Below, piece by piece: positions 3,542 to 43,245 of a stretch of 64,000 nt of DNA (position 1 is its first letter; the number at the start of each line of letters is the position of its first letter). The stretch spans positions 1,650,654 through 1,714,653 of the forward strand of contig NC_020449.1 of the NCBI RefSeq assembly GCF_000146065.2, written 5' to 3'. The DNA comes from Candidatus Cloacimonas acidaminovorans str. Evry (GTDB lineage Bacteria; Cloacimonadota; Cloacimonadia; Cloacimonadales; Cloacimonadaceae). The notes beneath the pieces are model-generated. The model worked only from the letters and a program-made list of their open reading frames with translations. It was not told the origin of the DNA and searched no databases. Both the position numbers and the translations under genes were made by a program.

Positions 3542-4291
3542 TTATATTTGTTCATTTTTAATATTATACTCTTTCAGAGCTGGTTTTCCTGCATCAATTT
3601 CCACATAAGAATAATAGGTTATCCAGTCACCGCAATTAAGGTAAGAGCCGTTTCCCATAGTTTCCCAAACGGGCTGGTGACTATGTCCCAAAACCACAAT
3701 ATCGGCTTTTTTATGTTCAATCAACCATTTGGCGTAATTTTTTAAGCCCTTGCTTTTTTTGTCAACAAGTTCCTGGTTATCTTTCCTTTGCCTGCTGGTG
3801 CGGGAAAAGCGACTACCAATAGTTAAAGCCAAATCAGGATGCAGGAAAGAGGCAATTTTATGGACAGCTTTCCAGCGAATTACTTTACGGTAAAGCTGAT
3901 AACGCAAATCGTTAAAAGTGCGGGTATCGCCATGTTCAAAACGGATTTTTTTGCCGTCGGTATTAAGAGTAAAGCCATCAGGATGAATTTCACAACCAAT
4001 ATAATCGGATAAAAAGTTTCCGAACCAGAAATCGTGATTGCCACTGATATAAACTATGCGAGTTCCACTTTCTTTGATAGCGGATAAGGCACAAAGGACA
4101 GGAAAATATTGTTTCACTACGGTAAATTTTCCTTCCAGCCAGAAATCAAAAATATCCCCAGAAAGCACCATTAAATCATATTTTCCCGGAATGCTTTTAA
4201 GAAAACTGATTAGTTTGTCGGCGCTTTCTTTATCGGCATTGCTGGCGCAGTGAAACTTATAATGGCAATCGGAAAGAGCAATTATTTTCAT
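3542..4291 (-). CDS. UDP-2,3-diacylglucosamine hydrolase-like metallophosphoesterase
   Basis: A calcineurin-like phosphoesterase of 249 aa with all metal motifs: LSDCH near the N terminus, LSGDIFDFW (about 43-51), YISGNHDFW (about 81-89), FEHGD (about 118), and GHSHQPVW (about 202). Length and the GDIFDFW/GNHDFW signatures resemble LpxH, which removes UMP from UDP-2,3-diacylglucosamine in lipid A synthesis. The assignment to lipid A is by family resemblance; no other lpx gene is nearby. The start overlaps the DUF4159 gene by 4 nt. Confidence 0.75.
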   Translation of the reverse strand: MKIIALSDCHYKFHCASNADKESADKLISFLKSIPGKYDLMVLSGDIFDFWLEGKFTVVKQYFPVLCALSAIKESGTRIVYISGNHDFWFGNFLSDYIGCEIHPDGFTLNTDGKKIRFEHGDTRTFNDLRYQLYRKVIRWKAVHKIASFLHPDLALTIGSRFSRTSRQRKDNQELVDKKSKGLKNYAKWLIEHKKADIVVLGHSHQPVWETMGNGSYLNCGDWITYYSYVEIDAGKPALKEYNIKNEQI

Positions 4292-10047: not shown

Positions 10048-10500
10048 TTACATATTAGCGGTCAGTTTATCCGCACCGGGAACATTATCCATATACCCAT
10101 TTTCCACGGCAGAAGAGATAGAAAGGATTTCATCTCCCACGGTCTGCAGATCGGAATAGGTTAGGGTAGTGAGGTCTATATGTTCCGCATCAGCTTTGGC
10201 AAACTTAAACATCATTTTAACCCAAAGTGCGTATGCATTTGGAAGCAATTTGCCTTTAGGAACATTTACCTCGTTTAGAAGGGCATATTGTTTCAGCTCT
10301 TGTTTATAGCTCTCTGAAACATCATTATAGATAATTGCCAGGTTTTTCATCTTGCCGCCAACTAAAGCATTTTGGTCGGTAAGACGGGGTTTTACATACT
10401 TACGGCCTATGCAGATAGTATTTTTACGATAACTGCCGTAGGTTACTTCATCCATAGTGCCGGAGTAGGTTTTGATTCCGTACTTGAAGTTTACTTTCAT
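10048..10500 (-). CDS. Protein of unknown function, MKV(N/K)F-x-YG family (paralogue of 27371-27817)
   Basis: 150 aa, starting MKVNFKYGIKTYSGTMDEV. It aligns over its whole length with the 148-aa protein at 27371: MKVxFxYG, a YxG/D strand, a basic strand (CIGRKYVKPRL against YARKNISPKL), a KMM-FAK helix, IDLTTLT against IDLKTIT, and AVENG against AVEAG. The N-terminal strand pattern followed by P-x-L-x2-N recalls DUF6266-like proteins of Bacteroidota, a weak resemblance I cannot test. There is no signal peptide or membrane segment. GGAGAAACAAA precedes the ATG. It is followed by the 54-aa gene and a terminator, and preceded by the element at 10562-10591 shared with its paralogue. Confidence 0.85.
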   Translation of the reverse strand: MKVNFKYGIKTYSGTMDEVTYGSYRKNTICIGRKYVKPRLTDQNALVGGKMKNLAIIYNDVSESYKQELKQYALLNEVNVPKGKLLPNAYALWVKMMFKFAKADAEHIDLTTLTYSDLQTVGDEILSISSAVENGYMDNVPGADKLTANM

Positions 10501-10561
10501 TTTGTTTCTCCTTTGTTTTTTGTTTTAGGCGTTTCCGGAAATCTTGCCTTCACTTATATAG

Positions 10562-10681: not shown

Positions 10682-11953
10682 ATGGATAATTTAATTAAGG
10701 ATTTACTCGCTTTCCTCTCTGGTAGTAAAAGCAGTTTTTTTGCCAGTTTGGAAATTCGGAAGCGTTTGGAAAAAGCAGGTTTTATCTATCTTCCTGAAGA
10801 TAAACCTTTCAAGATTATGAGAGGCGAAAAATATTATCTCTGTCATCAGGGAACTACTATTGTTGCTTTTATAACAGGTAGTGAAAAAATCGCTAAAACA
10901 GGTTTCAACCTTGCCGGAAGCCACATTGATTATCCCTGCCTAAAGCTCAAACCCCAAAGTTTGAAAACCGAAAAAGGGATCACTAAAATTGGGGTTCAGC
11001 TTTATGGCTCACCTATTATCAGCACTTGGTTAGACCGCGAATTGGGAATTGCCGGAAAAATTATAGTAAAAACGGCAAAGGGTTATAAAGTGGAATATGT
11101 GGACTTAAAAAAGCCCGTAGCCGTTATTCCCAATGTAGCTATACATTTGAATCGGGAAGTAAATAGTGGGTTTGCCTATAATCCACAGACCCATTTAAAT
11201 GCTATACTCAGTGTTAGTTCTACAGGCACAAATCCACTTTATTCTCTTATCGCGGAGGAACTTAAGGTTAAGGTAGAACAGATTGCCGAAAGTGACTTAT
11301 ATTTGTATGATTTTACAACCCCGAACTTATTGGGATTAAAACAGGAAATGATTGTTTCTCAAGGTCTTGATAACCTGGCTATGACTCATTCTATTCTTTC
11401 CGCCCTTCTTAAATGTGAGAAACCTCAAAAAACAGCAGTAGCTATCTTTTTTGATAATGAAGAAATCGGTTCGCAGACCTCTCAGGGAGCAAATTCCTTA
11501 CTTCTGGAGGAAATTTTAGAACGAATTTGCCTCAGTCAAAGCGATTCCCGAGAAGATTTTTACCTGGCTTTGCGCAACAGCTTTTTTATTAGTGCTGATG
11601 TAGCAAATGCCTGGCATCCTTCTTTCGCCGAAAAATATGAGCCGGATTATGCTCCTCTGATGAATAAGGGACCAGTTATTAAGTTTGATGCTTATAACAG
11701 ATACGCCTCGGACGCAGAAAGCTCCTATCGCTTTATTCAGCTTTGTGAAAAGGCAAAAGTTCCTTATCAAAAGTTTTTAGTGCGTAGCGATGCCACCAGT
11801 GGAGTTACAATTGGTCCTATTTTATCTTCAAAATTGGGGTTGAAGACAGTTGATATCGGAAATCCAATTTGGGCAATGCATTCCATCCGGGAAACAGGTG
11901 GAACTGAAGACCACAAATACCTTGTGAAAGTTTTAGAGGAATATTATAAATGA
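10682..11953 (+). CDS. M18 family aminopeptidase
   Basis: 423 aa with the M18 (aspartyl aminopeptidase) pattern: a metal-binding GSHIDYPCLKLKP near residue 80, then the catalytic FDNEEIGSQTSQGANS near 260, ISADVANAWHPSF near 300 and a C-terminal metal His in MHSIRETGG. M18 enzymes are cytosolic di-zinc peptidases forming large tetrahedral dodecamers, removing N-terminal acidic or neutral residues. The start follows GGAG with spacing 8. The TGA stop (11951-11953) is itself overlapped by the first GAGGTCGA octamer of the next feature, so the cassette begins exactly at the end of this gene. Confidence 0.93.
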   Translation: MDNLIKDLLAFLSGSKSSFFASLEIRKRLEKAGFIYLPEDKPFKIMRGEKYYLCHQGTTIVAFITGSEKIAKTGFNLAGSHIDYPCLKLKPQSLKTEKGITKIGVQLYGSPIISTWLDRELGIAGKIIVKTAKGYKVEYVDLKKPVAVIPNVAIHLNREVNSGFAYNPQTHLNAILSVSSTGTNPLYSLIAEELKVKVEQIAESDLYLYDFTTPNLLGLKQEMIVSQGLDNLAMTHSILSALLKCEKPQKTAVAIFFDNEEIGSQTSQGANSLLLEEILERICLSQSDSREDFYLALRNSFFISADVANAWHPSFAEKYEPDYAPLMNKGPVIKFDAYNRYASDAESSYRFIQLCEKAKVPYQKFLVRSDATSGVTIGPILSSKLGLKTVDIGNPIWAMHSIRETGGTEDHKYLVKVLEEYYK

Positions 11954-11983
11954 GGTCGAGAGGTCAAGAGGTCGAGAGGTCAG
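11952..11983. repeat. Left octamer array (GAGGTCGA type) of the four-helix-bundle cassette
   Basis: Four 8-bp units: GAGGTCGA, GAGGTCAA, GAGGTCGA, GAGGTCAG. The complementary array on the other side of the gene (12387-12470) reads GACCTC, so the two form an inverted flank around 12007-12375. Confidence 0.85.
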
Positions 11984-12006
11984 AAATAAAAAAAGAAGGA
12001 GAAAAA

Positions 12007-12375
12007 ATGAGCGGATTTAAAGAACTAAAGGTCTGGCAAATTGGAATTGATTTGGTCTTGAAGGTATATAAAATAACAGAGTCATTTCCTAAAAGTGAAA
12101 TTTATGGATTATCTTCACAGATGAGACGATGTGCAGTATCAATTCCTTCTAATATTGCAGAAGGTTCAAGTAGAAATAACCCCAAAGAATTTACCCAATT
12201 CTTATATATAGCACAAGGTTCACTTTCAGAACTGGATACTCAATTTACATTAGCTCAACTACTTGGTTACATTAAAGATTTTAACCAAATTGAAGAGTTA
12301 ATTAGACAGATAAGAAGTATGTTGACAGGTCTTATCAAAGCACAAAAGACACAAAACCCTCAAACAAAATTTTAA
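12007..12375 (+). CDS. Four-helix-bundle protein (23S rRNA intervening-sequence / Avd-like family)
   Basis: 122 aa beginning MSGFKELKVWQIGIDLVLKV with the family signatures FPKSEIYGLSSQMRRCAVSI, PSNIAEGSSRNNPKEFTQFL and IAQGSLSELDTQFTLAQLLGY. Such proteins (TIGR02436-type) are encoded in intervening sequences of 23S rRNA genes, as free-standing genes, and as Avd partners of diversity-generating reverse transcriptases. No reverse transcriptase or rRNA gene is near. The start at 12007 follows AAGAAGGAG; an in-frame ATG at 11950 is rejected because the extra 19 residues would be encoded by the octamer repeat. The gene sits between inverted octamer arrays in an otherwise ordinary gene run. Confidence 0.92.
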   Translation: MSGFKELKVWQIGIDLVLKVYKITESFPKSEIYGLSSQMRRCAVSIPSNIAEGSSRNNPKEFTQFLYIAQGSLSELDTQFTLAQLLGYIKDFNQIEELIRQIRSMLTGLIKAQKTQNPQTKF

Positions 12376-12386
12376 CGATGTCCTCA

Positions 12387-12470
12387 GACCTCTCGACCTC
12401 AAGACCTCAAGACCTCTCGACCTCTCGACCTCTCGACCTCAAGACCTCAAGACCTCTCGACCTCTCGACT
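12387..12470. repeat. Right octamer array (GACCTCTC/GACCTCAA), ten units
   Basis: Ten exact 8-bp units, GACCTC followed by TC or AA in the order TC, AA, AA, TC, TC, TC, AA, AA, TC, TC, plus a final GACT. It stops 22 nt before the DUF1015 start codon. The same words appear at 20944-20966 and, in degenerate form, at 18868 and 42230. Confidence 0.9.
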
Positions 12471-12491
12471 AAAAAATAAAGGAGTAAATAA

Positions 12492-13742
12492 ATGTCTACT
12501 TTCAAACCCTTCAAAGCCCTGCGTCCCATTCCGGACAAAGCAAAGGCAATTGCTTCAATGCCTTATGATGTTATGGATTCAGATGAAGCACGCATAGAAG
12601 TGCAAAAAAATCCTTTAAGCTTTCTCCATGTAGAAAAACCGGAAGTTGATCTTCCCTTGGGAACCGATTTATACGATCCAGCTGTTTATGCCAAAGCCAG
12701 AGAAAACCTCTATAAATATGTTTCCGACGGCTATATGAAACAGGATACAAAACCGGCTTATTACATTTATAAACAGGTTATGGATGGTCGTGCTCAAATT
12801 GGTTTGGTAGGCCTTACTTCCGTAGATGAATATATGGATGGCACTATCAAAAAGCATGAATTAACAAGAGAAGAAAAAGAAGCAGACCGCATTCGGCATA
12901 TTGATGCCTGTGATGCACATCCTTCTCCTGTGTTTTTTACCTATCGTCATCAAAATATTATTGATGAAACGGTAGCTAAGGTTATGGCTAATAAACAGCC
13001 AGAATATGATTTTATAAGCGATGACGGTATTCAGCATACACTTTGGGTGATGGATGATCCTGAAGATATAAAGACCATTCAAAATGCCTTTGCCGCCTTA
13101 CCGAATTTGTATGTGGCAGATGGACATCACAGAACTGCCAGCGCGGCAAAAGTTGGACTTAAAAGACGCGAGCAGTTTCCCGATTACACAGGCGACGAAG
13201 AATTCAACTTTTTTATGGCGGTTATCTTTCCGGATAATCAATTGAAGATTTATGATTATAATCGAGTGGTTAAAGACCTGAATGGCTTAACCAAAGACGA
13301 ATTTTTAGCCAAAGTAGCTGAAAAATGGAATGTTACCCCCATCCCTGAAGGAGAAAACTTTGCTCCTCAAAAGAAACACAATATCAGTATGTATCTTGAG
13401 GGAAAATGGTATCGTTTAGAACCCAAGCCGGGAACCTGGAACGAGAAAAACATTGTGGAAGACCTGGATGTTTCCATTTTACAGAATAATCTTTTGCAAC
13501 CCATTTTAGGTATCAATGACCCGCGCACCGATCAAAGAATTGATTTTATCGGTGGAATCAGAGGTCTGGGTGAATTGGTTAAAAGAGTTGACAGCGGAAG
13601 AGAAAAAGTTGCTTTTGCTATGTATCCTACAAGTATGGATGAACTTATAGGAATTGCCGATGCAGGAGAAATTATGCCTCCCAAATCAACTTGGTTTGAA
13701 CCTAAATTACGCAGTGGACTGTTTATTCACTTACTTAAATGA
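12492..13742 (+). CDS. DUF1015 family protein
   Basis: 416 aa. FKPFKALRPIPDKAKAIASM followed by PYDVMD, and later NLYVADGHHRTASAAK, are the characteristic segments of DUF1015, a conserved bacterial family, some of whose members are described as SpoIIE-associated or ParB-like in fold, with no assigned reaction. No signal peptide is present, so it is cytoplasmic. GGAG precedes the ATG by 7 nt. The stop codon overlaps the rimO start by 4 nt, so it is likely translationally coupled to rimO and trpS. Confidence 0.9.
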   Translation: MSTFKPFKALRPIPDKAKAIASMPYDVMDSDEARIEVQKNPLSFLHVEKPEVDLPLGTDLYDPAVYAKARENLYKYVSDGYMKQDTKPAYYIYKQVMDGRAQIGLVGLTSVDEYMDGTIKKHELTREEKEADRIRHIDACDAHPSPVFFTYRHQNIIDETVAKVMANKQPEYDFISDDGIQHTLWVMDDPEDIKTIQNAFAALPNLYVADGHHRTASAAKVGLKRREQFPDYTGDEEFNFFMAVIFPDNQLKIYDYNRVVKDLNGLTKDEFLAKVAEKWNVTPIPEGENFAPQKKHNISMYLEGKWYRLEPKPGTWNEKNIVEDLDVSILQNNLLQPILGINDPRTDQRIDFIGGIRGLGELVKRVDSGREKVAFAMYPTSMDELIGIADAGEIMPPKSTWFEPKLRSGLFIHLLK

Positions 13743-16555: not shown

Positions 16556-16801
16556 GCAGATAGCTGAATTAACCTGATCAACCGGATTTATGATTTTATA
16601 ACTTATAAAAAAACTGTGTAAATCCGTTTTAGCTGTGTTATCCGGGTTGCTAACCCTTTTCCCCACAAGCATTACTATAGCAATACGGACTCATTGCTAA
16701 TGCCATCCGTAATGGGTAAGCAATGGGTAAGCAATGCAATTAGGGAAGAAAACAAAAATCATTATAAAATATAAAGTTACGCTTCATGTAAAAAAAAACC
16801 G
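16556..16801. repeat. Gap with GCAATGGGTAA palindromic repeat (16664-16748)
   Basis: The words GGGTAAGCAATG, given twice, and an inverted ATTGCTAATGCC lie around a CCATCCGTAATG centre. The reverse complement matches 42467-42549 closely. No gene is seen in this gap. Confidence 0.75.
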
Positions 16802-18571
16802 TCAATTCCCTGCATTTTGCTTATCGCTCAGTTCCAGCCAACGCGTAAGTAGTTCTTGATGTCTATTTTCCAGTTCTTGCATAGAAATGCTGATATGATA
16901 ATAATCATTGGGAGATAGAGGTTTGGCAAAATCATTAAGTCGGCTTTCCAGTTCCAGAAGTTCACTTTCTATTTTTTCAATTTCCTTTTCCAGCAAGCCA
17001 AATTCCCGTTGTTCATTATAGCTCAAGCCCTTGGCAATGCGTTTGGGACGCGTAATAACCGGTTCTTTTTTCTCCTCTGTTGCATCCTGTTCAAAACGCT
17101 TAACCAGTAAATAATCGGAATAGTTACCGGCAAATTTACGCAATTTACCATCTTGGAAAATAAAGAGATAGTCCACCGTTCTGTCCAAAAAGAAACGATC
17201 GTGGGAAACAATTAACAGGCAACCTTTAAAGGCATCCAGATAATCCTCCAAAATTTCCAGAGTGCGAATATCCAAGTCATTTGTGGGCTCATCCATAATA
17301 ATAAAATTGGCTCCAAACATCAGTGCCTTCAAGAGATAGAGCCGTTTTCTTTCTCCTCCGGAAAGTGCGCCTAATTTCATTTGTTGCATTTTGCCGTCAA
17401 AAAGAAATCTTTTCAGCATTTCCGTGGCAGTAACTTTGTTGCCTTCAGCGTTTTTTATAACTTCGGCAAATTGAGCGATGTATTCATAAACGGTAAGATT
17501 GGGGTCAAAACTATCCTCATCCTGTTTATAATACGCAAAATGAGTATTTATACCTGTTTTCACAGTTCCGTTATCGGGCTTTTCTTCTCCCACGATAATT
17601 TTCAGCAAAGTTGTTTTGCCACAGCCATTAGGACCGATAATTCCAACTCTTTCCATATTCTGAAAGTTGTGGTCTATATCCGTAAAAAGGACTTTGCCGG
17701 AGTAGGATTTGCCGAGACGATGCAATTCCAGAATGGTTTTCCCTAAACGATCAATTTGGAAAGAGATATCCAAATCCTGATGGGAAATAAGATAACTTTT
17801 GCTGAGCAGTTCCTTTACCCGGTCAATATGGTCTTTGGGCTTACTGGTTCTTGCTTTTGCACCCCGATTTAGCCAATCAAGTTCTTTTTTTAATTGTGCC
17901 TGACGCCTAGTTTCTTTACGCTTATTATCCGTAGCTCTGATTAGTTTTCCCCGAATGTAAGCACTGTAATTTCCTTCGTAATAAAAGAGTTTCGTCCTTT
18001 CAATTTCAATGATTTTGGTAGCAACAGCATCCAGAAAATAGCGGTCGTGAGTTACAAAAATAACTGCCTTCCCGGCATTTGCCAAATAGTTTTGCAGCCA
18101 TTCAATGGTCTCCAAATCCAGATGATTAGTGGGCTCATCTAAAAGCAATAAATCCGGTTCGGCAGCTAAAACTCTTGCCAAATCAGCTTTTCTGCGTTGC
18201 CCTCCAGAAAGGTCTCCCATTTTTTCGTCAAAATTGTTTATTCCTAAACGGCTGAGAATTGATTTATAGTGATATTCATCCTTTATTTCTCCTGCAACGG
18301 GAAAAGTATGCTGCAAAACCGAAAGCTCGGAAATATAAACAGGGTCTTGCTCTAACAGGCACACTTTTAAATCCTTACGGCTTGTAACGGTTCCCGTGTT
18401 GGGCTTGATTAAACCGCTGATAATACGCAGTAAAGTTGTTTTGCCACTGCCGTTTATGCCTACAATGCCAATTTTTTCGGAAGAATGAATGCCAAAAGAA
18501 ACACCCTGTAAAATGATTCTCTCTCCATATAGACAGGATACATTTTCAAGGGTTAATAGGACTTCATTCAT
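16802..18571 (-). CDS. ABC-F family ATPase (Uup-like)
   Basis: 589 aa with two ABC domains and no membrane part. Walker A: GINGSGKTTLL (about 36-46) and GPNGCGKTTLL (about 312); signatures LSGGQRRKADLARVL with DEPTNHLDLETIEWL, and LSGGERKRLYLLKAL with DEPTNDLD. The linker region between them is basic and helical, and a C-terminal coiled coil (EQREFGLLEKEIEKIESEL) resembles Uup. ABC-F proteins act at the ribosome or on DNA-related processes rather than in transport. The gene stands alone on the minus strand, downstream of the tRNA gene. Confidence 0.92.
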   Translation of the reverse strand: MNEVLLTLENVSCLYGERIILQGVSFGIHSSEKIGIVGINGSGKTTLLRIISGLIKPNTGTVTSRKDLKVCLLEQDPVYISELSVLQHTFPVAGEIKDEYHYKSILSRLGINNFDEKMGDLSGGQRRKADLARVLAAEPDLLLLDEPTNHLDLETIEWLQNYLANAGKAVIFVTHDRYFLDAVATKIIEIERTKLFYYEGNYSAYIRGKLIRATDNKRKETRRQAQLKKELDWLNRGAKARTSKPKDHIDRVKELLSKSYLISHQDLDISFQIDRLGKTILELHRLGKSYSGKVLFTDIDHNFQNMERVGIIGPNGCGKTTLLKIIVGEEKPDNGTVKTGINTHFAYYKQDEDSFDPNLTVYEYIAQFAEVIKNAEGNKVTATEMLKRFLFDGKMQQMKLGALSGGERKRLYLLKALMFGANFIIMDEPTNDLDIRTLEILEDYLDAFKGCLLIVSHDRFFLDRTVDYLFIFQDGKLRKFAGNYSDYLLVKRFEQDATEEKKEPVITRPKRIAKGLSYNEQREFGLLEKEIEKIESELLELESRLNDFAKPLSPNDYYHISISMQELENRHQELLTRWLELSDKQNAGN

Positions 18572-18734
18572 AATTTTAGTTCCCGTAGATTACGCTTATT
18601 TTCCCGCAGATTTCGCAGATATTTATCTTCATTTAATTTATACATATATAATTAGTTATACTACTGCATTCTATTTATAGCGCGGGTTTCACTTTTTCAC
18701 TTTTTCACTTCACTTGTTAGCCCGTTAATCATTT

Positions 18735-20730: not shown

Positions 20731-21031
20731 AATATTTCACTTTAACAGTAAGTAATATCTGTTAATAATTATATGTATGTTGTTGTCTTTCATTGTGTTG
20801 CTCTTTTTTTTATCTTGTTTCTTTTATTAACAAAACCCCATATCTGTCAAATCCTTTTTTGTTGTGTAGCCGGAGGACGCTGTTCCTCCACTTTTTCTTT
20901 ATGCCAAGCTTCCGTAAGCTCCGCCTACTCAAAATCCTTTTTTCAGACCTCAAGACCTCAAGACCTTTTTCTTGACATCAAATCAGGAATTAAAATTAAA
21001 GTAAAAGTCAAATAACGATATAGAGGAAACA
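20731..21031. other. Divergent intergenic region with repeats and coaBC promoter
   Basis: Holds a GTGTAGCCGGAGGACGC repeat (20864-20891) and a GACCTCAA octamer run (20944-20966: AGACCTC repeated three times). CTTGACA begins at 20971, directly after the octamers. No gene is seen. Confidence 0.6.
20972..21000 (+). promoter_or_regulatory. Putative promoter of the coaBC operon
   Basis: TTGACA at 20972-20977 and ATTAAA at 20995-21000 with a 17-nt spacer; the ATG is 32 nt after the -10. The GACCTCAA octamers end directly in front of the -35. Confidence 0.5.
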
Positions 21032-27370: not shown

Positions 27371-27817
27371 TTACAAAGTTCTATCCAGCAGTTCCCAGTC
27401 CGTTACTGGGGGCAGTAAACCCGCTTCTACAGCTCTTTTAACACTGATGCAAGGTAGATCATTTTCGTATATGTAATCCCGGGTAATAGTTTTGAGATCT
27501 ATTTCCGGATACGATTTTGCCAGTTGATGCATCATCTTCAAATAGAGATTCACCCAGGAATATACCTCTTTTTCGGCATTTTCCGGTAAGCCGTTATAGC
27601 GCATTACATAGAGCCGAAGGTCATCTTTAAAGCCGGTTGAGGGCTGTAACGAATGCAGATTTGCCGTTATTGAACCCATTTTATGATGATTTTCCACCAA
27701 TTTTGGCGAGATATTCTTCCGGGCATAAACTCTGCCCATTCGCCGATTGTAACAGAATACAAGGCCATCTGCCTTGCCTGTGTAACCCGCTAAGCCGTAT
27801 TGAAATTTTACTTTCAT
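27371..27817 (-). CDS. Protein of unknown function, MKV(N/K)F-x-YG family (paralogue of 10048-10500)
   Basis: 148 aa starting MKVKFQYGLAGYTGKADGLV. It shares with the 150-aa protein MKVxFxYG, the basic strand RVYARKNISPKL, the YxW/KMM-AK helix (VNLYLKMMHQLAKSYPEIDL) and the AVEAG end, and is otherwise diverged. It has no signal peptide or membrane segment and no 54-aa partner gene downstream. AAGGAGAAAGAAA precedes the ATG. A TCCGTAAC palindrome lies upstream at 27955, beyond the shared element at 27873. Family unknown to me. Confidence 0.85.
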   Translation of the reverse strand: MKVKFQYGLAGYTGKADGLVFCYNRRMGRVYARKNISPKLVENHHKMGSITANLHSLQPSTGFKDDLRLYVMRYNGLPENAEKEVYSWVNLYLKMMHQLAKSYPEIDLKTITRDYIYENDLPCISVKRAVEAGLLPPVTDWELLDRTL

Positions 27818-27954: not shown

Positions 27955-28034
27955 TTATAACCAAGTAACAACCAAGTAACAACTCCGTAACGAGACAACG
28001 GAAGTGTTACGGAAGTGTTACGGAGTCGTTACTT
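27955..28034. repeat. Iterated palindromic repeat, TCCGTAAC family, copy 2
   Basis: Reads GTAACAACTCCGTAACGAGA followed by GTTACGGAAGTGTTACGGA and GTCGTTAC; almost the reverse complement of copy 1 at 1649. Confidence 0.82.
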
Positions 28035-28321
28035 AATTGACTATGTAACAAACAATTAATGAAGGTTGAAAAATGATAAATTGGAAAATTGAGTATTCAG
28101 AATTGAGAATTGAAAATAGTTGAAAAGGTTGAGATCTTTAAAAGCCCGATGGGCAACACAATGATAGCGATGGGTGCATAAGCCCCTCGGAAAATAAGGT
28201 TTAGAAGGTTGAGAATGTTTAGAGGGTTTAGATACATTAAAGCCCCTGAGGGCAATTCTCAATTTTCACTCCTCAATTTACAATTTGCAATTCTCACCTG
28301 ATATCCTTATAAAATTCATTT
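28035..28321. repeat. Gap with one complete 99-bp-type unit (28138-28252)
   Basis: AAAAGCCCGATGGGC, ACAATGATAGCGATGGGTGC, AAGCCCCTCGG, the GGTTTAGAAGGTTGAGA 9-mers and AGCCCCTGAGGGC follow in the order of the array at 16067. The flanking AT-rich words (AATTGAGTATTCAGAATTGA) are low complexity. No gene is seen. Confidence 0.75.
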
Positions 28322-42168: not shown

Positions 42169-43245
42169 TTTTTACCTCATTTTATACAAAAAAAAGCAAT
42201 TACATTCTTCTGTCAAGCGAAATGAAAAATGACAAGAGGTTAAGGGGTCAAGAGGACAAGAAGATAAGAGGACAAGAGGGTTTTTACTAAATATTTTCAC
42301 TTGTCTTCCAGGAAAATACTCCCCCAGAACTAATTCACTTACAACCGAACTTATATCGGTTTACAAATTGAAATATTTGGATTTATAATAGAATAAACCC
42401 CCGTAATTTGTACTAACCTATAATGCATACTTACATAAACAATTAGCCAAAAATATCATCTCTTCCCTAATAGCATTGCTTACCCATTGCTTACCCATTA
42501 CGGATGGCATTAGCAATGGGTGAGCAATGCTAAAGCAATGCGCTTAGGAAAAAATGAGTTGTTCTTTTAAATAAATATAAGTAATCAGATAATTTCCTCT
42601 TGGAAAAGCTATAGATAAAAATACCTTTAAGGATTGCAAGTATCTAATGTCACTTTTTGAATGATAAATCATTTGTAATTTCTGCGCAAGCAGGAAGCCA
42701 CACAAGATAAATAATATCTATGCTTTTCCCCTCCGATATTTTATAAAAACCGATTTCAACCCGGTGCAATGTGTAAAGGAAATAACTTATCTCTTTTATT
42801 AAGAAAGAGTTCCGTAGGAACGACAGATACTAACAACGGGTTTCAACCCGGTGATAAGCAATCAGAAAAGTCATTATCTCTTTTTCCTGCAAGAAGTTCC
42901 GTAGGAACGACAGATTTTAACAACGGGTTTTAACCCGGTGATCAGGATAGCTTTAGATAGCTTATTTCTTTTTTTGAGAACGAGTTCCGCAGGAAAAATA
43001 TAGTAGTACTCCTTTCATAGTAGATATTGCAACTGATTTAGCAGTTTCCAATTCCGCATAAATAACTGACATTCATTTTTCAGAGTTTTACGAATTCTTT
43101 GGCAAAGAACAAATTTGCCCACCCATTTGTCCTCAACTGCCTTGTTTGGAATAAAACTACTTTGTCTTACAGAATTTTTAAGACATCACTTTTCCACTTG
43201 AAACTGATATTAGATACTGTGAAAATATCTTGTTACATAAAATGC
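42169..43245. repeat. Gene-free interval of about 1.08 kb, mostly repeats
   Basis: Holds degenerate AGGTC/AGGAC octamers (42230-42282), a GCAATGGGTAA palindrome (42467-42549, inverted copy of 16664-16748), and a block from about 42640 to 42990. That block has AAGATAAATAATATCTATGC, GGGTTTCAACCCGGTG and AGTTCCGTAGGAACGACAGA, with the last at 42808, 42895 and 42983 (period 87-88 bp). The same block recurs at 45355-45765. No gene is seen. Confidence 0.75.
42185..42216 (-). promoter_or_regulatory. TTGACA box and AT-rich element upstream of adk
   Basis: Minus-strand CTTGACA (TGTCAA at 42211-42216) with TATAAA about 24 nt downstream, 48 nt before the ATG. The long spacing is like that before other genes of the window. 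Confidence 0.4.

Follow-up and report, generated by a model that had tools for sequence, protein, structure and literature searches.

Small genes of the 23S rRNA-intervening-sequence family are usually boxed by inverted arrays of short repeats and may form hairpin-bounded mobile elements

Introduction

In the genome of Candidatus Cloacimonas acidaminovorans, a small gene of the 23S rRNA-intervening-sequence type (hereafter 4HB, for four-helix bundle) lies between two inverted arrays of octamers, in the gap between the genes of an M18 aminopeptidase and a DUF1015 protein. Do these arrays belong to the gene, and if so, what do they form together? The preliminary description of the locus, made on a window of 64,000 nucleotides (the whole stretch of DNA analysed), proposed a 519-bp moving cassette with the octamers as its ends, which had left solo arrays behind elsewhere. 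Short intergenic tandem repeats have been recorded for decades in cyanobacteria, xanthomonads, and other bacteria, with no agreed origin. We know of no function for the 4HB/S23 family. Its open reading frames occur in the intervening sequences (IVS) of the 23S rRNA of, e.g., Coxiella and Leptospira (PMC4990558).

Results

The boxed locus and its protein

The locus comprises the following features:

10682-11953, + strand: M18 aminopeptidase gene (PF02127), the upstream host, at whose stop codon the left arm starts
11952-11982, + strand: left arm, tandem array of GAGGTCGA/GAGGTCAA, about 3.8 copies; overlaps the M18 stop codon
12007-12375, + strand: 4HB gene of the 23S rRNA-intervening-sequence type (PF05635/TIGR02436, by profile matches), 122 aa
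12387-12469, - strand: right arm, inverted tandem array of GACCTCTC/GACCTCAA, about 10.4 copies; pairs with the left arm in the RNA fold
12492-13742, + strand: DUF1015 gene (PF06245), the downstream host, with its ATG at 12492

The arrangement first described is real: a PF05635/TIGR02436 gene stands between GAGGTCGA on the left and GACCTCTC/GACCTCAA on the right. The left array, given as four units on the upstream TGA, begins inside that codon (11951-11953), and the right array does end 22 nt before the next start. The 'ten exact units' on the right turned out to be copies matching at 89%, with the two unit types intermixed. The gene starts at the ATG at 12007, and its open frame extends upstream to 11950. 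Two-unit patterns matched 10-11 times at the locus, against 0.12-0.13 expected from shuffled sequence. The predicted single-strand RNA fold of 11945-12480 joins the two arms by base pairing (-137.1 kcal/mol, z=-5.35). The site lies outside any 23S rRNA gene helix.

The protein scores 132.8 bits against PF05635 (curated cut-off 33.8) and 128.7 bits against TIGR02436 (cut-off 24). We rejected a true Avd because two Avd models both remained under their cut-offs (25.4 vs 80 bits and 27.1 vs 40 bits), and a RAYT because the protein lacks a Y1/HUH tyrosine transposase match. Profile searches gave no nuclease or transposase family, only PF05635 and the sub-cut-off bAvd match. The sole solved structure related by sequence is 2GSC, the protein XCC0516 of Xanthomonas campestris (PMC4990558); no close Xanthomonas copy of XCC0516 was found among the 369 genomes sampled. 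Eleven pairs of 4HB genes gave dN/dS values of 0.03-0.15, which indicate that the protein is under strong purifying selection.

Boxing of 4HB genes across bacteria

We classed a gene as boxed when the inverted local match between the 350 nt on either side of it scored at least 17. The family is present in 48 of 61 Cloacimonadota genomes, and 30 of the 34 above-threshold loci examined in this phylum are boxed. The same holds for 58/80 loci collected across many phyla by means of a protein alignment, 20/25 gammaproteobacterial loci (found with the PDB sequence), and 19/27 loci in nine named genomes, some of which overlap the 80. IMG/VR contigs carrying a 4HB gene score 17 or more in 11 of 12 cases; a search for 4HB in phage records gave no match. 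The control set of 326 ordinary genes, drawn from 20 evenly spaced genome stretches plus the window, contains 14 boxed genes (4%; Fisher p = 8e-29 for 30/34 vs 14/326). None of 24 PIN-domain genes in relatives is boxed, and mismatched flank pairs score as boxed in 4-5% of cases (5.4% in the 80-locus set). These three controls led us to reject chance inverted repeats, and the arrays are not equally common beside any gene. Judging by these sequence counts, 4HB genes of many phyla are as a rule boxed by inverted arrays. About a quarter of the loci fail the inverted-arm test, and at some, e.g., L120 and L033, the arrays are direct rather than inverted. We dropped an rRNA location as the explanation for poorly boxed loci, since 16 4HB loci gave no Rfam rRNA match.

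The preliminary description expected the same octamers at the flanks of 4HB genes in related genomes. These genes are indeed mostly boxed, but usually by other units, so that the octamer is not a general end sequence and the conserved feature is the architecture rather than GAGGTC. Of the two findings that it named as refuting, homologues lacking the octamer were seen, but an equal frequency of arrays beside any gene was not. Units are usually 7-9 nt long and vary by locus, while the two arms of a locus match each other. Close 4HB proteins have arrays in common, whereas those of distant ones differ. The left arm is G-rich on the coding strand, often with GTGA/AGT, and is reverse-complementary to the right arm. 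We counted GTGA 247 times on the left side and 78 times on the right, and TCAC 54 and 215 times, respectively. Left arms of different loci resemble each other on the same strand in 4.6% of pairs, vs 0.2% on the opposite strand. The polarity of the unit is fixed relative to the 4HB gene.

Relative to the upstream stop codon, the median position of the left-arm start is -2 nt; the right arm stops a median 7 nt short of the following start codon, a rough value because starts were taken from the longest open frame. The 4HB genes share the orientation of their neighbours in a ratio of 85:3. This is weak evidence because ordinary genes of the genome already show 40:6 (p=0.06); given this and the 12:3 of Y1 genes, we dropped sense bias as a proof of mobility at the RNA level.

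Solo arrays and other boxed genes in the same genome

The genome (2,246,820 bp, one contig) encodes five PF05635 genes above the cut-off and a sixth that falls short of it. Leaving the window gene aside, three of the remaining four above-cut-off genes are boxed by inverted arrays too, each with a different unit. The units are AAGGTTGAG/CTCAACCCT (GGTTnAGnn type) at locus L002, AGTTCAAAGTGCGGG-type at L003, and AAAGTGAACAGTGAA / TTTCCACTTTTCCAC at L004. At L002 (1483-1905), the right array falls within the 4HB reading frame and encodes a PSQPSQPSQ tail. Arrays of such units also stand alone in the window:

2041-2158, - strand: solo arrays of the L002-type unit (GGTTnAGnn), which boxes another 4HB gene of the genome
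16086-16221, + strand: two solo L002-type arrays
18687-18710, - strand: solo array of the unit boxing the 4HB gene of L004, TTTCACTT
20945-20966, - strand: solo array of the window octamer, AGACCTCA x2.8
28196-28232, + strand: solo L002-type array, AAGGTTTAG

In 464 kb of the genome, we found 8 intergenic arrays of the L002 type, 4 of the L003 type, and 8 of the L004 type; all matches number 9, 5, and 9, against 0, 0, and 3 in the reversed-sequence control. The GAGGTC unit is rare there, with one other place by pattern (control 2) plus the array at 20945. The idea of solo arrays left behind fares unevenly. Gene-less arrays exist, and the one placed at 20944-20966 is genuine, but GAGGTC solos are rare and the other two of the three sites named as such are weak: 18868 holds only AGAGGTCTTTAGGTCTA, and 42231-42279 (given as 42230) is mostly GACAAGAG/GATAAGAG with one GGGTCAAG.

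Boxing by inverted repeats extends to a second family. Genes of the GxxExxY family (PF13366, PD-(D/E)XK fold) are boxed in 23 of 29 cases in relatives, with units such as ACGCAGATT. In the genome of the window, locus L043 (G000:C1:790001-810000) carries GxxExxY genes between nonamer arrays ACGCAGATT/AATCTGCGT, e.g., at 3829-4197, 10151-10546, and 17742-18137. Such an identical layout with other units, and the solo arrays scattered between genes, would be expected if the arrays were passive landing pads: dispersed first by slippage, as proposed for heptamers (PMC4692102), or otherwise, and then receiving small genes by homologous recombination or transformation, 4HB having no relation to them. 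We consider this quite unlikely, since PIN-domain and ordinary genes are so seldom boxed and the unit polarity is fixed to the gene. Furthermore, 4HB genes within one genome differ in their units, and close 4HB proteins at different sites share them.

Genes of Y1 transposases are boxed in 19/29 cases by apparent REP-like palindromes, which fits the known RAYT-REP arrangement (PMC2817692). They occur in 30 of the 41 Cloacimonadota genomes searched, and many have their own inverted repeats on both sides. One might therefore imagine a 4HB element moved in trans by such a HUH/Y1 transposase, or by a reverse transcriptase with 4HB as an Avd-type accessory, in line with the distant relationship to Avd (25 bits vs a cut-off of 80). 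We regard this as very improbable: the inverted repeats of Y1 loci look palindromic and REP-like, unlike the tandem arrays of 4HB genes.

The window also contains reverse-complement copies of a ~75-nt element with 11-nt units TTCCGTAACAC and TTGTTACTTGG (1645-1722 and 27959-28024). The 11-nt unit GGTAAGCAATG recurs at 16711-16736 and 42474-42499 of the window and in L040 (8732-8798), L052 (18323-18389), and L055 (4572-4637), frequently in inverted, back-to-back pairs that are separated by 10-20 nt and lack a gene. Two window genes on the - strand (10048-10500 and 27371-27817) encode paralogous proteins of ~150 aa that match neither Pfam nor NCBIfam. The end of a third relative appears to lie immediately upstream of the boxed 4HB gene of L003.

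Filled, empty, and exchanged sites

We read the M18/DUF1015 gap in 14 Cloacimonadota genomes. It is filled in six, all of the own genus, and gene-less in one; the empty sites sought in related genomes account for the other seven. The six filled sites hold at least three 4HB types, each with its own arrays, whose units are GAGGTCGA (G000, the genome of the window, and G001), GATAGCGA (G002), GTGGAAAAGTGAAACAAGG-type (G005, G007), and TCGAGATG (G006). In G001, a GATAGCGA array lies outside the GAGGTCGA array, on the left side only; from this succession of arrays, it looks as though one element replaced another. The gene-less site (G008) consists of an inverted array pair (ATGGACAAA-type) lacking a 4HB gene. 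In Bacteroidales, an element lies between frdA and frdB (identified by eye from their translated ends) in eight genomes. Its units differ from genus to genus, and its insertion is apparently inherited vertically over several genera. In the pairs L009/L013, L129/L146, and L145/L174, homology is confined to the element, and the sites differ.

Cyanobacterial plasmids also carry 4HB genes. Of 12 that we examined, 8 reach a score of 17 or more (two of them represent one region on two plasmids of a single strain), and three further loci have short visible arrays. Their units GGGAGTA, AGGGAAC, and AGGTGAC resemble known heptamer repeats (STRR). Filled and empty sites could be paired at cas10/cmr3 (filled in Picosynechococcus PCC 7003, empty in PCC 7002), at nrdB/nrdA (Nostoc edaphicum vs Calothrix NIES-4105, the element being antisense to both genes), and beside a TraM-domain gene (Nostoc C052 and N. 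edaphicum vs Nostoc C057). At the latter site, Nostoc ATCC 53789 has arrays and no 4HB gene. Between cas6 and cas4, Anabaena sp. 90 has a 4HB element and Dolichospermum UHCC 0315A another inverted-repeat insert. The filled/empty junctions on plasmids lie at or near the array ends. In the filled/empty pairs (82-97% flank identity), we found no clear target-site duplication; some show short replaced sequence.

Plasmid CRISPR operons of three cyanobacteria (L255, L257, L262) contain 4HB elements; these lie between cas6 and cas4 where the operon is of type I-D, and between cas10 and cmr3 where it is of type III-B. In PCC 7003 (L262, ~1930-1985), the first array units contain the last codons and the stop of cas10, AGAATTTGAGGAGATA twice, and the array seems, from this overlap, to have grown over the cas10 end.

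The claim of a 519-bp moving cassette can accordingly be kept in part. The arrays act as ends of a ~0.5-kb unit, gained, lost, or replaced together, a reading further supported by the element-only homology at different sites; the octamer itself is not a general end.

The two arms change together

At orthologous sites, arm complementarity averages 24.5 within a locus vs 14.7 across loci; the pair L188/L189 shows no such difference. Both at M18/DUF1015 and at frdA/frdB, the unit has changed jointly in the two arms. In the type-A element of G006, for instance, the GAGGTC of both G000 arms is replaced by GATGTC on either side (plus a single GAAGTC), and in G001 the outermost two units, GAGGTCTT-GGGGTCGA, are identical and in the same order in both arms. 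This matching within loci points to copying between arms or to strong selection for pairing; a mechanism that holds inverted arrays alike at a distance would be of interest in itself.

Matched arms would also suit a resident host module in which the hairpin is a device for mRNA processing or stability and 4HB a regulator, with no present mobility. Strong purifying selection, the frdA-frdB position conserved over several genera, and the placement between a stop codon and the next start agree with it. Yet presence and absence vary between related plasmids and within one genus, 4HB types are exchanged at one site, and the flanking host genes are of unrelated kinds, which together make such a module unlikely.

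Discussion

The 4HB gene and its inverted arms are probably a compact, hairpin-bounded mobile element. We favour this reading because 4HB genes are boxed far more often than ordinary genes, PIN genes, or mismatched flank pairs and the unit polarity is fixed, because sites are polymorphic, with empty counterparts and filled/empty pairs on plasmids, and because homology can be confined to the element. The matched arms, the arrays shared by close 4HB proteins, the low dN/dS, and the predicted pairing of the arms in RNA argue in the same direction. Against it count the lack of a clear target-site duplication, a 4HB protein without nuclease or transposase signature, the vertical look of the frdA/frdB insertion, and a sense bias barely above that of ordinary genes. 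The quarter or so of loci that fail the inverted-arm test, some with direct arrays, is a poor fit to an obligatory hairpin.

Such an element would consist of two inverted arrays of a short unit (mostly 7-9 nt) enclosing one 4HB gene, and would usually follow directly on a host gene's stop codon. Its arms may fold back into a hairpin, either in the transcript or as single-stranded DNA. This hairpin or the units could be bound by the 4HB protein, aiding movement, copying, or excision. Arm-to-arm copying via the hairpin would preserve the match between arms. In the transcript, the hairpin might let an enzyme that cuts double-stranded RNA, e.g., RNase III, split the 4HB message from the host genes. 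The enzyme cutting or copying the strand would probably be host-encoded or act in trans.

Several known systems resemble this arrangement in part. The 23S rRNA IVS share the protein family, the sporadic distribution, and the short element with complementary ends, which form a stem-loop whose loop contains the gene. They differ in that the window element lies between protein genes and its arms are arrays of short tandem units; excision by RNase III, which may apply to the window element, is established for IVS. DNA transposons with terminal inverted repeats likewise have inverted ends around a gene and are gained and lost as a unit, but the 4HB element encodes no transposase match. The Foldback elements of Drosophila have long inverted arms of short tandem repeats and many gene-less copies; they are eukaryotic and larger, and their proteins are unrelated. 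Tetris is a foldback transposon (PMC4079207). In the RAYT-REP system (PMC2817692), a single gene is flanked by inverted copies of a genome-dispersed repeat, a likeness limited by the rarity of the window octamer outside its locus; RAYT is a Y1/HUH transposase and REP a palindrome, whereas a domain of this kind is absent from 4HB, whose repeats are tandem and non-palindromic. The Avd of diversity-generating retroelements (DGR) has distant sequence similarity and a four-helix-bundle fold, but the 4HB protein falls below both curated cut-offs and no DGR context lies next to the window gene.

Bacterial heptamers are also similar: the cyanobacterial STRR, GGGAATC/GGGGA(C/T)T of Xanthomonas and Nostoc (PMC4692102), and TAACTGA (PMC4679880) form intergenic tandem arrays of 7-nt units near the upstream stop codon, often in convergent (inverted) pairs. 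The heptamer form, GGGAATC included, is seen in arrays boxing cyanobacterial and gammaproteobacterial 4HB genes. One gammaproteobacterium (G436) has a 4HB gene boxed by GGGAATC-type units and exact GGGAATC arrays at five places, one of them an inverted pair. The two heptamer papers (PMC4692102, PMC4679880) give origin and function as unknown, one of them considers that a repeat-binding protein could be the mobile element, and a search for four-helix-bundle terms found no tie of the repeats to a 4HB gene. Nor did we find a report tying 4HB genes to short tandem arrays in the open-access literature; subscription literature lay outside the search, so the novelty is provisional.

More tentatively, with the balance tipped somewhat against it, 4HB genes, and in parallel GxxExxY genes, could drive an unrecognised class of mobile hairpin elements, of which STRRs, the Xanthomonas-Nostoc heptamers, and many other short tandem repeats without a known origin would be footprints and the 23S IVS one special niche. 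The strong, polarity-fixed link between 4HB genes and repeats across many phyla gives each a testable partner, the question being which protein acts on which repeat. Through this link, the 23S rRNA intervening sequences become part of a larger family, and boxed 4HB genes a possible origin of several unexplained repeat families in bacteria.
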